Assembly: GCA_015056565.1 (NCBI GenBank)
Contig: SVGB01000005.1
Span: 62,001-126,000 of the forward strand
Source: Butyrivibrio sp.
GTDB lineage: Bacteria; Bacillota; Clostridia; Lachnospirales; Lachnospiraceae
Direction of reading: 5' to 3'
Length of the DNA: 64,000 bases
The translations under genes were made by a program, and so were the position numbers. Shown in pieces: positions 26,325 to 51,245 of this stretch; the stretch's first letter is position 1; every line of letters starts with the position of its first letter. Under the pieces are notes generated by a model. That model did no database searches. It saw only the letters and a list, made by a program, of their open reading frames with translations, and had not been told where the DNA came from.

Positions 26325-28598
26325 ATGGAAGTAAAAGACGTAGTTTCTAAAATGACACTTCAGGAGAAGGCAGCTCTTTTGTCCGGTAAGGATTTCTGGC
26401 ACACGGAAGGCACTGAAAGGCTTGGCGTGCCTGAGTTTATGATGTGCGACGGACCTAACGGGCTTCGCAAGCAGGATGGTGAAGCTGACCATCTGGGGCT
26501 TAATTCCAGTATCAAAACTGTGTGCTATCCAACAGCCAGTACAGTTGCATCAAGCTTTGATGTGGACATGGCAAGAAGGCTTGGACAGACTCTTGGAAAA
26601 GAGTGTCAGAGAGAAAATGTAAGTATGCTCTTAGGACCTGGCCTTAACATGAAAAGAAGCCCTATCTGCGGAAGGAACTTTGAATACTACTCAGAGGATC
26701 CATACCTTGCAGGCAAAATAGCAGCAGCCTATGTTGAAGGTATCCAGTCTGAAGGTGTTGCAGCCTGCCCCAAGCACTTTGCTGCCAACAACCAGGAATA
26801 CAGGCGTATGTCCGGAAACTCTGTTGTTGATGAGAGAACACTTCACGAGATCTACCTTACAGCTTTTGAGATCATGGTAAAAGACTCTCACCCCAAGTCC
26901 ATAATGTGTGCCTACAATCAGCTTAATGGAACCTACCTCTCAGATAACAAGTATATGTTAACTGATGTACTTCGCGACAAGTGGGGATTTGACGGTTTTG
27001 TGGTAACTGACTGGGGGGCTGGAAAGGACGCTAAGAAAGGTGTTGAAGCAGGCCTTGACCTTGTGATGCCAGGACCAAGAAAAGACCATGAGGATGCCAT
27101 AGTGGCTGCAGTTGAGAGTGGTGAGCTTGAAGAATCCAAGGTGGATGAGGCTGTTACCCATATCTTAAATGCCTTAAACTGGACACTTGAGAATAAGAAA
27201 AACGTTGGTCCTTCTACAGAGGCCACAAGAGCTGAGGACTATGCTTTCGCAAAAGAGCTTGCAGAGGGCGGAGCAATCCTTCTTAAGAATGATAATAAGG
27301 CCCTGCCTTTAAAGGATGACAGAAAGATCCTGTTCGTTGGCGAGTTTGCCAAGACTCCAAGGTACCAGGGCTCTGGTTCATCCCACATAAACAGTGCATT
27401 TGTTTCAAATGCCTACGACAGCGCAATAGCTTTAGGAAAAGATATTTCTTTTGCCATGGGCTATGACACAAAGTGTAAAGACGTCAAAGACAGCTACATT
27501 TTAAGGGAAGAAGCTGTTGAGGCAGCAACGGAAGCAGACGAGATCGTAGTATTTGCCGGGCTCCCTGCATCCTATGAATCTGAAGGTTTTGACCGCTCAG
27601 ATATTAACCTTCCTCCCGAGCAGGACAAGCTCATTGACGAGCTTTCACACCTTGGAAAGAAGACAGTGGTTGTGATGCACAACGGCTCTCCAGTTGCCAT
27701 GCCATGGATAGACAGCGTGGATGCTGTTCTTGATATGCAGCTTGCAGGAGATGCAGTGGGAGATGCCACGGTAGCTCTTTTGTGGGGAGATGTTAACCCT
27801 TCAGGAAAGCTTTCTGAATCCTATCCGTTTAAACTTTCAGACAACCCAAGCTTTCTTAATTTCCCGGGAGACGGCGGAAATCCAGTATATGCTGAGGGCG
27901 TTTACATTGGATACAGATATTATGAGAAAAAGAGACTTCCAGTCCTCTTTGCATTTGGCCATGGCCTTAGTTACACAGAGTTTGAGTATTCAAACATCAC
28001 AGTTGATAAGGATAATGCCACAGATGAGGATACAATAGAGGTTTCAGTTGACGTCTGGAATGTTGGAAGATATAAGGGAAAAGAGGTAGTTCAGCTCTAT
28101 GTAAGTCCTGAAAACAGCAAGATCTCAAGGCCCTACAAGGAGCTTAAGGGCTTTACAAAGGTAGAGCTTGATTCAGGTGAAAAGAAGACAGTGACCTTTA
28201 AGCTTGACTCAAGAGCCTTTGCCTACTATGAGACCAGGATCCATGATTTCTACGTTGAGAGCGGAGATTATAACATCATGATCGGAGCTTCAACAATAGA
28301 TATCAGACAGACAGTTAAGATCCATGTTGAGAGCTCTATAGAGCTTCCAATGACTTTTGACCGCTTTACACCTATTGAGGATATCCTTGATACAAAAAAG
28401 GGACAGATGGTCCTTGGACCTGTTCTTCAGAAGATAGGCGAGGGTATGGAGAATCAGGAAGACGACGGCTCCATGGGAGAAGGCGGAGCTGAGATGATGA
28501 CCAAGATGTTCATGGAAATGCCCATCATCAATCTGGCATCCTTTGGAATTCTGACCACAGAGCAGGTGGACGGAATCCTTAGCCAGCTCAATAACTGA
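26325..28598 (+). CDS. GH3 beta-glucosidase
   Basis: 757 residues, no signal peptide, so it works on imported oligosaccharides. The GH3 N-terminal barrel carries the nucleophile motif GFVVTDWG (Asp229) and GPGLNMKRSPICGRNFEYYSEDP; the alpha/beta sandwich domain and a C-terminal fibronectin-III-like domain (DVWNVGRYKGKEVVQLYV) follow. Expected activity is release of glucose or another beta-linked sugar from non-reducing ends. The gene is monocistronic, with AGGAGG before the ATG. It is followed by the long structured non-coding region. Confidence 0.95.
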   Translation: MEVKDVVSKMTLQEKAALLSGKDFWHTEGTERLGVPEFMMCDGPNGLRKQDGEADHLGLNSSIKTVCYPTASTVASSFDVDMARRLGQTLGKECQRENVSMLLGPGLNMKRSPICGRNFEYYSEDPYLAGKIAAAYVEGIQSEGVAACPKHFAANNQEYRRMSGNSVVDERTLHEIYLTAFEIMVKDSHPKSIMCAYNQLNGTYLSDNKYMLTDVLRDKWGFDGFVVTDWGAGKDAKKGVEAGLDLVMPGPRKDHEDAIVAAVESGELEESKVDEAVTHILNALNWTLENKKNVGPSTEATRAEDYAFAKELAEGGAILLKNDNKALPLKDDRKILFVGEFAKTPRYQGSGSSHINSAFVSNAYDSAIALGKDISFAMGYDTKCKDVKDSYILREEAVEAATEADEIVVFAGLPASYESEGFDRSDINLPPEQDKLIDELSHLGKKTVVVMHNGSPVAMPWIDSVDAVLDMQLAGDAVGDATVALLWGDVNPSGKLSESYPFKLSDNPSFLNFPGDGGNPVYAEGVYIGYRYYEKKRLPVLFAFGHGLSYTEFEYSNITVDKDNATDEDTIEVSVDVWNVGRYKGKEVVQLYVSPENSKISRPYKELKGFTKVELDSGEKKTVTFKLDSRAFAYYETRIHDFYVESGDYNIMIGASTIDIRQTVKIHVESSIELPMTFDRFTPIEDILDTKKGQMVLGPVLQKIGEGMENQEDDGSMGEGGAEMMTKMFMEMPIINLASFGILTTEQVDGILSQLNN

Positions 28599-28618
28599 TA
28601 AGTAAAGCTAGTCCATAG

Positions 28619-28791
28619 CCGCTTCTTGAATTATAAGTCTGACCGGATGAATATCAATAGCCTTTCGCGGCATATCCTCGTTAGAGGGAAGTCAGTGGGG
28701 ACAGAGCCGTCCCCACTGACTTTCCTCCAACTGCGGTATTCCACGGTGCTATTGACATTCATTCGGTCAGACTTTTTTGGTGATCAAGCGG
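28619..28791 (+). repeat. 173-nt structured element, copy A
   Basis: The element opens with CCGCTTCTTGAATTATAA (28619-28636) and closes with AAGCGG (28786-28791), which pairs with its CCGCTT. A 25-bp stem (28637-28661 with 28748-28772; one wobble and one mismatch) encloses conserved blocks CGGCATATCCTCG (28668-28680) and CTGCGGTATTCCA (28731-28743). The 50-nt tip (28681-28730) is a 19-bp hairpin of the GGGGAC/GTCCCC type. It aligns without gaps to copy B. Confidence 0.85.
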
Positions 28792-29286
28792 CCATGGATG
28801 GGGCGTTGTAGGTGCTGAATCGGCTCCCCTGTTAGACTAATACCCGCGCAGATGCAAATTTGCGGCCCGGAGCCTTTTGGGTGCGGTATATCGTATTGCA
28901 GTCGATGCTATTGCGTGAATATAATACCACCGACCAGCCTATCTTCTGCAGGTATTATGGTTTTACAGAAATATTATCTGTTATCATATTCAATCTAATA
29001 CCCACAGCCCTCACACCGTTGCCAGGTATGATTTTTCTATTGTGGTTTCATTGAAACTGGAAATATTGGCGCAAGAAATATAATACCAATATCCACATAC
29101 TCTTCTGGTGATATTAAAAGTATCCGGATTCTTTTTTTCAAAACCAGAAAAAGCTAGGACCAATTATAAGGAAATCTATTAATGGTATTAGATCAGCCAA
29201 AGCCCTCTCAAAAATAGCTTTTTGTGGCTCCTACCAATACCGCTTTTGAGCTCCACTATGCGTCCCAAAGTGTCGGATTTTCTTGA

Positions 29287-29527
29287 TTACGGACTATTGC
29301 ATAGAAAAAAACTCTACAGTAGGTCATTATTTTCCGCTAAAAACCTCAAAAAAGTCCATTTTCAGACTAGGAAGCACTTTTGGGGGCTAAAGTCCGTAAC
29401 TTGCCTTCCGAATCCAGTGGCAAAATTTCTTGAAAAAACTCGTTTTACGGACTGTATGCTCAAAAAACACGCTGTAGTCCGTAATGCAATTTAATAACGA
29501 TCGATATCGGCCATCTTTTTACGGACT
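29287..29527. repeat. TTACGGACT inverted-repeat cluster
   Basis: TTACGGACT occurs at 29287-29295, 29445-29453 and 29519-29527, and its complement AGTCCGTAA at 29391-29399 and 29476-29484. This gives two inverted pairs (about 113 and 40 bases long) plus an unpaired half. Similar TTACGGACC arms occur in the palindromes at 45906-46174. Confidence 0.7.
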
Positions 29528-29671
29528 TGGATAAGAAAATATGTCATATAGTCTGAATGCCACTATAAAGTGCCAATTAGTCAATGCTTTGCCGAGCACC
29601 CAGCGCCCCTCATTCAGGCAGCCCAAAATCCCTGCTTAAAGCCAATACCACCAGCCGCACCTTCATCATCC

Positions 29672-29844
29672 CCGCTTGATTACCCAAAAAAGTCCACCGG
29701 AAATTGGTCAAGTGGATCATGGAATACCGCAGCAGATACGGCCGGGTAAGAACAGCTAAATTCCTGAAACACCCAGTATCTGCGAGGATATGCCGTGAAA
29801 GCCACTTGATCGATTTCCAGTGGACGTTATAATTCAAGAAGCGG
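29672..29844 (-). repeat. 173-nt structured element, copy B (inverted)
   Basis: Read on the minus strand, it begins with the same 18 bases as copy A (29827-29844) and ends in AATCAAGCGG (29672-29681). Its 24-bp stem (29692-29715 with 29802-29825) has a different sequence from copy A but still pairs, and its 50-nt tip (29733-29782) is unrelated in sequence yet self-complementary (CAGATAC/GTATCTG ends). Every segment has the same length as in copy A. Confidence 0.85.
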
Positions 29845-29863
29845 GGATGATTCCGCGTAGGTT

Positions 29864-31159
29864 TTATTTTGAAAGAGGACTCTTTCTGTAAATGATGTCG
29901 TTTCTTGCAGGTCCGTTACTTACCATTGTGATAGGATATCCGATCTGGCCCTCGATGAACTCGATGTAGTTCCTGCAGTTTTCAGGAAGGTCTTCGTAGT
30001 TCTTGATGCCTCTGATATCGCATTTCCATCCTGGAAGTGTCTTGAATACTGGCTTAGCCTTCTCAAGAAGGTGAGTTACAGGGAACTCGGTTGTAACTTC
30101 GCCGTCAATGTCGTAGCCGACACATACAGGGATCTCGTCAAGGTAGCCAAGTACGTCAAGTACTGTGAATGCTACGTCTGTTGTGCCCTGAAGTCTGCAG
30201 CCGTACTTACTTGCTACGCAGTCGTACCAGCCAACTCTTCTTGGACGACCTGTTGTTGCGCCGTACTCACCGCCGTCACCGCCGCGTCTTCTAAGTTCCT
30301 CAGCCTCATCTCCAAAGAGCTCAGATACAAATGCTCCAGCTCCAACAGCAGAAGAGTAAGCCTTGGATACAGTGACGATCTGCTTGATCTCATAAGGTGG
30401 GATTCCTGCACCAATTGCACCGTATGCAGCCAGTGGTGAAGAACTTGTAACCATAGGATAGATTCCGTGATCAGGATCCTTCATGGTACCAAGCTGACCT
30501 TCAAGAAGGATTGTCTTGCCTTCCTTGATGGCCTTATCAAGATAGAGAGAAACATTTCCGATGTATGGCTTAACCTGCTCTCTCCAGTCTACGATCTGAT
30601 CAAAAAGAGCTTCCTGATCGATAGGATCTGCATGGTAGAGATTAACTAAGATGACATCTTTGATCTCTGCAATCCTTGCGATCTTTTCTTTTATAACTGA
30701 GTCCTCCTGGAAGAACTCGTTGATCTGCCAGCCGATCTTGGCGAACTTATCTGAATAAAAAGGTGCGATACCTGACTTGGTTGAGCCAAAGCTCTTTCCA
30801 GCAAGGCGAGCTTCCTCAAGAGTATCAAATAACACATGATATGGCATCATGACCTGAACTCTGTCAGAGATCATGATCTGTGGCATTGGAACGCCCTTGG
30901 ATGTGATCTCATTAAGCTCTTTCATGAACTTGGTAATATCAAAAGCTACTCCATTGCCAATGATGTTCATGATGTTCTGATGGAAAACACCTGATGGCAT
31001 TGTGTGAAGTGCAAATTTACCATAATTATTTACAATTGTGTGTCCTGCATTGGCACCACCCTGAAAACGGATAACGACGTCAGCCTTATCTGCTAAGGTA
31101 TCTGTGATCTTACCCTTTCCTTCATCGCCCCAGTTAGCGCCTACAACAGCTTTTACCAT
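29864..31159 (-). CDS. purA: Adenylosuccinate synthetase
   Basis: 431 residues. PurA joins IMO and aspartate with GTP to form adenylosuccinate, the first step from IMP to AMP. The start at 31159 is chosen because the protein then begins MVKAVVGANWGDEGKGKITD, with the GDEGKGK P-loop at the N-terminus as in the family, and CCTCCT (AGGAGG on this strand, 31169-31174) is 9 bases upstream; in-frame ATGs at 31177 and 31189 lack this. Other motifs: GGANAGHTI with catalytic His, and the GTTGRPRRVGW substrate loop. Monocistronic. Confidence 0.96.
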   Translation of the reverse strand: MVKAVVGANWGDEGKGKITDTLADKADVVIRFQGGANAGHTIVNNYGKFALHTMPSGVFHQNIMNIIGNGVAFDITKFMKELNEITSKGVPMPQIMISDRVQVMMPYHVLFDTLEEARLAGKSFGSTKSGIAPFYSDKFAKIGWQINEFFQEDSVIKEKIARIAEIKDVILVNLYHADPIDQEALFDQIVDWREQVKPYIGNVSLYLDKAIKEGKTILLEGQLGTMKDPDHGIYPMVTSSSPLAAYGAIGAGIPPYEIKQIVTVSKAYSSAVGAGAFVSELFGDEAEELRRRGGDGGEYGATTGRPRRVGWYDCVASKYGCRLQGTTDVAFTVLDVLGYLDEIPVCVGYDIDGEVTTEFPVTHLLEKAKPVFKTLPGWKCDIRGIKNYEDLPENCRNYIEFIEGQIGYPITMVSNGPARNDIIYRKSPLSK

Positions 31160-51173: not shown

Positions 51174-51245
51174 TGCACCCGACTGGACTCGAACCAGCAA
51201 CAAAGGCGTCGGAGGCCTACGTTTTATCCATTAGACTACGGGTGC
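51174..51245 (-). tRNA. tRNA-Arg (anticodon CCG)
   Basis: On the minus strand the 72-nt sequence folds with acceptor stem GCACCCG/CGGGTGC, anticodon loop CTCCGAC (anticodon CCG, U33 and A37 present), T-arm CTGG-TTCGAGT-CCAG and discriminator A. CCA is not encoded. It lies between an acyltransferase gene and a HicAB module. Confidence 0.93.

Follow-up and report, generated by a model that had tools for sequence, protein, structure and literature searches.

What is the role of two long hairpins that lie, inverted with respect to each other and changed in sequence but still paired, between a beta-glucosidase gene and purA on a Butyrivibrio chromosome? A sequence-only reading of the window (the whole stretch of DNA analyzed, 64,000 nucleotides) had proposed either a structured non-coding RNA or a palindrome-ended mobile element. 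Both copies were found where that reading had placed them, and since the outermost stems pair, too, pairing extends further on either side, spanning 28612-28799 for copy A (the left-end hairpin, sense core on the plus strand) and 29665-29851 for copy B (the right-end hairpin, sense core on the minus strand). One non-coding element of 1.24 kb (∼1240 bp; 28612-29851, no strand assigned) has the two copies as its ends. The reading that we consider best, with a probability of roughly two in three, is that of a mobile element, non-coding, which has at each end an inward-facing hairpin of the single-stranded DNA promoter or priming (ssi) type.

Each hairpin begins, on the outside, with an outer stem that varies in sequence. 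Next come an internal loop, in which CTTGAATTATAA faces TTTTTTGG..GATC, a long stem, likewise variable, and the conserved core, in which CTTTCRCGGCATATCCTCG faces CTGCGGTATTCCAYG; the tip varies again. The general pattern of the core is CTTTCRCGGCATA...TATTCCAYG; in copy A, it is represented by CTTTCGCGGCATATCCTCG in the 5′ arm (28662-28680, plus strand) and CTGCGGTATTCCA in the 3′ arm (28731-28743, plus strand), in copy B by CTTTCACGGCATATCCTCG (29783-29801, minus strand) and, again, CTGCGGTATTCCA (29720-29732, minus strand). The 18-nt start (CCGCTTCTTGAATTATAA) and the further blocks that the two copies had been said to share are indeed present in both. Their alignment, claimed to be free of gaps, is nearly so; MAFFT introduces one single-base gap per row (213 columns for 212 bases). 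The Butyrivibrio copies carry a T-run after the second stem. The tip of copy A (28681-28730, plus strand) belongs to the GGGGAC palindrome family, as had been noticed before, and the same site in a related genome (G006) holds a longer palindrome there, which supports the suggestion that one repeat is nested inside another. GGGGAC palindromes are also nested in the left-hairpin tip of L023 and in L292, and in G000:C30 such a palindrome occupies the site where another genome, G028, has the element.

The 199-nt stretches containing the hairpins fold far better than dinucleotide shuffles (z of −14.2 for copy A and −7.3 for copy B; 0 of 200 shuffles as good). When 17 hairpins were aligned, both sides had changed in 26 of the 43 pairs, many of these changes merely separating left from right types and thus not being independent events. 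Of all cells, 95.4% paired, versus 32.8–41.8% with the partners slid by one to three columns, and only nine G-U cells were present outside two common core U-G pairs. Covariation thus exceeded the controls, and the claim that pairing had been kept despite sequence change held. No Rfam family matched the hairpins at gathering score, the sole match in the window being a tRNA (51174-51245); relaxed thresholds yielded weak matches only, and nothing for the hairpins.

When a covariance model was applied with strict filters to 79 genomes of the genus, 20 had matches, which means many copies and not just two, and relatives carry further copies of the element at other loci. The exact core pattern had 20 matches in four of 99 genomes (own genome included), 14 of which form seven convergent pairs, each combining a left type with a right type. 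In a scan of 60 sources, neighboring hairpins (separated by less than about 1.6 kb, counted by hand) faced each other in 20 of 21 pairs; the sole tandem pair is that at 1554 and 3141 of L105 (G019:C2). Outside this set of 21, two core hairpins 3 kb apart on G496:C1 (L133 and L138) diverge, the reverse of the arrangement in the window, and each lies antisense to the gene for an IS3-like transposase, which shares 34.8% identity with that of G029.

In six genomes (G105, G002, G017, G010, G043, and G021), the matches to the beta-glucosidase and purA flanks are 95–304 bp apart, and no core is contained in these stretches; relatives thus keep the flanking genes adjacent without the element. The window site is filled in one other genome (L023), and the element of G028:C58 is missing at the orthologous site in G006, G000, and G105. 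Dispersed homologous copies and empty sites are properties of MITE-like elements; a target-site duplication, another such property, was not found in clean or consistent form, the flanks of filled and empty sites being different. Because left/right-ended copies are dispersed, orthologous sites are empty, and 20 of the 21 pairs face each other, the element is read as mobile, and these sequence comparisons support its mobility well. Of the two possibilities originally proposed, the mobile element is supported, and the structured non-coding RNA is not the preferred one.

The interior (28800-29664, no strand assigned) is characterized by TAATACC..GGTATTA and ACGGACT..AGTCCGT repeats, and parts of it are common to other copies at roughly 65–96% identity in alignment. 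The repeated TAATACC..GGTATTA hairpins and the ACGGACT/AGTCCGT repeats occupy 28918-29240 and 29287-29527 and are partly common to other copies. The interior contains no conserved ORF, matches of small ORFs between copies following from the similarity of the DNA, and the element as a whole has no convincing coding capacity. Neither a phage gene nor a conjugation gene was found at the element, and the whole element used as query matched none of the plasmid records.

The core extends beyond the element: of 397 genomes sampled from the family, the own one among them, 18 contained it and none the reversed pattern. A scan of named genomes revealed at least 118 stretches with the core; among the matches listed (80 rows, from which the spread was read), these cross phyla, comprising Actinobacteria, Proteobacteria, Bacteroidota, Firmicutes, and one cyanobacterium, with a few, such as L160 and L220, which lack paired arms, probably being chance matches. 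Among the matches listed, 98 distinct hairpins are from outside the Lachnospiraceae (left out by name, so that some may remain), and a gene start within 30–220 nt was present on the sense side only for 49 of them, on the antisense side only for 3, on both sides for 3, and on neither for 43. The distance to the sense-side gene ranged between 74 and 199 nt (median 105), and these genes include, judging by their N-termini, those for DNA methylases, ParB-like proteins, SSB, and an ArdC-like protein. In the Butyrivibrio set (51 hairpins), the region within 120 nt outside the hairpin contained only the end of a sense ORF in 30 cases, only the start of an antisense ORF in 2, both in 4, and neither in 15; a sense ORF end is thus present for 34 of the 51.

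The core hairpin was also encountered in insertion sequences. In 21 places (hand count after removal of duplicate loci), it follows the stop codon of a distant IS6/IS66-like transposase gene, or of a 3′ fragment thereof, by ∼30–40 nt, and in all 21 it is on the strand opposite to that gene. One example is L067 3560-5526 (G026:C2), which encodes a transposase of about 495 amino acids, has the ends GGTAGTGTC.. and GATAGTGTA.., and holds the core hairpin on the opposite strand of its 3′ non-coding part. Against the NCBIfam model for IS6, these transposases score 65–69 bits, which is below the cut-off of 125. IS3-type transposases were likewise found beside related hairpins. As the insertion sequences have ends of their own and the core hairpin is internal to them, the hairpin is not an insertion sequence end. 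Considered as the autonomous partner of the window element, neither type is clearly its source, again because the ends are others.

On the strand that would become single, both window hairpins display the arrangement TTGATA/TTGATC-N16-TATAAT. In copy A, the −35-like TTGATA (28652-28657) and the −10-like TATAAT (28630-28635) are on the minus strand; in copy B, TTGATC (29806-29811) and TATAAT (29828-29833) are on the plus strand. In either copy, the spacer is 16 bp, and the −10-like box resides in an unpaired internal loop, both boxes being largely unpaired in the DNA folds. Both copies are thus, according to the predicted folds, stem-loops that rebuild a −35 and a −10, as a single-stranded DNA promoter would. 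The best two sigma-70-like matches within 28400-30000 are exactly these boxes (11/12 and 10/12), whereas promoter-like sites in the region are no more common than in shuffles (5 versus a mean of 3.1, sd 1.8).

In the non-redundant hairpins, TANNNT was present at offsets 24–29 of the non-template arm in 24 of 45 from Lachnospiraceae and in 34 of 75 others, compared with 3 of 45 and 0 of 75, respectively, on the opposite arm. The best single offset accounted for 12 (Lachnospiraceae) and 16 (others), the maxima in mononucleotide shuffles being 7 and 5. A −10 in place was absent from 21 of 45 and from 41 of 75 hairpins, respectively. Where present in Lachnospiraceae, no more than two of its six bases were paired in 19 of 24 cases; outside this family, the box was less clearly unpaired (11 of 34). 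The non-template arm of the antisense form often reads GAAAG-N3-5-TTGAC. Host groups differ in the −10-like box: CTACGAT takes its place in several hairpins of Actinobacteria, and Mucilaginibacter (L164), Hufsiella (L166), and one further record (L239) have TATCTTTG, which we take to be the −7 form of Bacteroidota. The 25 non-redundant viral hairpins contained TANNNT at offsets 18–31 in seven cases (at 24–29 in six), and those of the insertion sequence type had, by inspection, no good −10 at a spacing of 16–18. Conservation is higher in the core than in the −35 and −10. When only hairpins bearing TANNNT outside the Lachnospiraceae are considered (n = 50, among the matches listed), the gene is on the sense side only in 26, on the antisense side only in none, on both sides in 2, and on neither in 22.

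In plasmid F (54009-54059; L261 6010-6060) and in ColIb-P9 (L263 9723-9774), a core hairpin precedes an annotated DNA methylase gene by ∼106 nt, on the oriT-proximal side and near the leading region. The hairpin region of L158 matched at least 5000 plasmid records, at least 4059 of which, among the matches listed, are typed as conjugative. In the 99402 bases of F and ColIb-P9, model R1 (E up to 10) matched only the methylase-side hairpin, once in each plasmid, Frpo1 and Frpo2 of F being without the core. The methylase-side hairpin is a candidate for a further single-strand promoter, other than Frpo1 and Frpo2. Single-strand promoters are placed in the leading region of plasmids in the literature (PMC11541004, PMC9849209, PMC7736820, and PMC10104558), and one of these papers describes an Frpo (ssi) upstream of the M.EcoGIX gene. 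The F methylase is probably a homologue of the product of that gene.

In viral contigs (IMG/VR, L295-L339), the core was present in 45 records, 34 of which are 5–12.5 kb long. Zot, the assembly protein of filamentous phages, is encoded in 29 of these 45 but in none of 27 controls matching the reversed pattern, which had been shortened and was 1.5 bases looser, so that more chance matches were to be expected from it. The zot gene is opposite in sense to the core in all 28 unambiguous records, some of which are close relatives and thus not independent; the remaining one (G540) has Zot on both strands. The core hairpin of inovirus-like contigs is a candidate complementary-strand origin. No core was detected in the 720-base piece of Pf1 examined, and two other hairpins matched none of the named phages, one short match being to an unannotated record. 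In plasmids and phages alike, then, the hairpin would be present in its antisense form on the strand presumed to be the one entering the cell. Placement upstream of early genes on an entering strand fits the plasmid and phage relatives; the window element is chromosomal.

To us, therefore, the hairpins look like promoters that work only on single-stranded DNA; a folded DNA strand is preferred over RNA because of the distribution across plasmids and phages and because of the promoter layout. Once one strand becomes single, the hairpin would fold, the non-template arm offering a duplex −35 (TTGATA/TTGATC), and the −10 (TATAAT) of the folded strand would sit in a pre-opened loop. RNA polymerase of the host would bind the folded hairpin, copy the other arm, and run inward. 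With the plus strand single, copy B would be active and transcription would proceed leftward into the element; with the minus strand single, copy A would be active and direct transcription rightward. As copy A would serve the minus and copy B the plus strand, each strand should have one promoter or primer site. The inward RNA could lead to expression of something or prime the second strand, the latter being at least as likely since nothing in the interior hints at a product. As about half of the hairpins, and most of those from phages, lack a −10 in place, recognition by RNA polymerase, primase, or another factor may be of the core itself. Whether CTTTCRCGGCATA..TATTCCAYG plus a −10 tuned to the host is one phylum-spanning motif for single-stranded DNA promotion or priming, common to inoviruses, conjugative elements, insertion sequences, and chromosomal MITE-like elements, with the Butyrivibrio element bearing both orientations and thus being active whichever strand is single, is a proposition to which we would give even odds.

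The features just described have to be weighed against other functions. Absence of a good −10 from most phage versions, together with the core being better conserved than the −10, would also be expected of an initiation site of the primase or primosome type (ssi) which does not involve RNA polymerase and in which the likeness to −35 and −10 is secondary. The narrow position of the −10, where present, and the consistent placement before start codons argue against it, so that we regard this alternative as unlikely. Slightly less weight is given to the hairpins being intrinsic terminators or 3′-UTR stability elements on a MITE-like element, which would replace the terminator of the host upon insertion after a stop codon. 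The T-run of the Butyrivibrio copies, the sense ORF ends near them (alone for 30 of 51, within 120 nt, and together with an antisense ORF start for 4 more), and the ancestral window site in G105, which by inspection has a hairpin resembling an intrinsic terminator between the genes, are in line with it. A terminator would, however, neither need TATAAT opposite the T-run nor explain the strand bias toward Zot, and outside the Lachnospiraceae, the hairpin precedes genes. A scan for terminators, which allowed loops of 3–8 only and is thus no test of this matter, returned one small site at the right edge (29841-29856, versus 1.5 in shuffles). Termination is doubtful as the sole function but compatible with single-stranded DNA promotion; as RNA, hairpin plus T-run might additionally serve flanking genes as a terminator.

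Ordinary double-stranded promoters reading out of the element ends, as in many insertion sequences, would be another explanation of the boxes, because TTGATA/TTGATC-16-TATAAT does face outward in duplex DNA. The boxes of the relatives, read in this way, would face away from the genes at which they point when read on the folded strand (26 sense-only versus 0 antisense-only of 50, among the matches listed), and there would be no explanation for the core, for the mismatched loop, or for the second arm being paired, all of which renders this possibility very unlikely. Even less probable is selection for a structured non-coding RNA, bound for example by RNase III or a protein. Covariation and the strong RNA folds speak for it, but the hairpins match no Rfam family, contain few G-U cells (the nine beyond the two common core pairs), and have a −10-like box varying with host group. 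We thus retain single-stranded DNA promotion or priming as the most plausible function of the hairpins.

Single-strand promoters rest on few characterized sequences; the search in PMC11541004 was seeded by five known Frpo/ssi sequences. In the open-licence literature searched, no description of the present core was found. A searchable core occurring in filamentous-phage-like contigs, insertion sequences, and chromosomal repeats would enable a search across phyla for early expression and second-strand priming, and its conservation raises the question as to which host factor reads it. A further suggestion is that passing through a single-stranded state shapes some of the repeats found in chromosomes.

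Compared with known systems, the window element shares with palindromic repeats of the MITE/BIME kind, which are non-coding, multi-copy, and intergenic and have inverted hairpin ends, all of these properties. It differs in that its ends are hairpins of ∼190 nt with promoter boxes and in that no matching transposase or target duplication was found. Insertion sequences from Lachnospiraceae whose transposases are distantly IS6/IS66-like or of the IS3 type contain the core hairpin as well, but they code for a transposase, have their own ends, and harbor the hairpin internally. At the minus-strand origin of filamentous phages such as M13, a hairpin of the packaged strand is used by RNA polymerase to make a primer; the orientation in the 28 unambiguous Zot-bearing records matches such a complementary-strand origin, whereas the sequence is apparently unlike that of M13, and the element in the window is no phage. 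Like Frpo (ssiD) of plasmid F and ssi of ColIb-P9, which Masai and Arai are reported to have described in 1997 as single-stranded DNA promoters, the present hairpins are long and, as predicted from sequence, rebuild −35 and −10 only when single-stranded; in plasmids, such hairpins are situated ahead of early genes in the leading region. It is the layout that is shared and not the sequence, Frpo1 and Frpo2 of F remaining unmatched by model R1; the present hairpins have a strongly conserved core of their own and occur also in inovirus-like contigs, insertion sequences, and chromosomal repeats.
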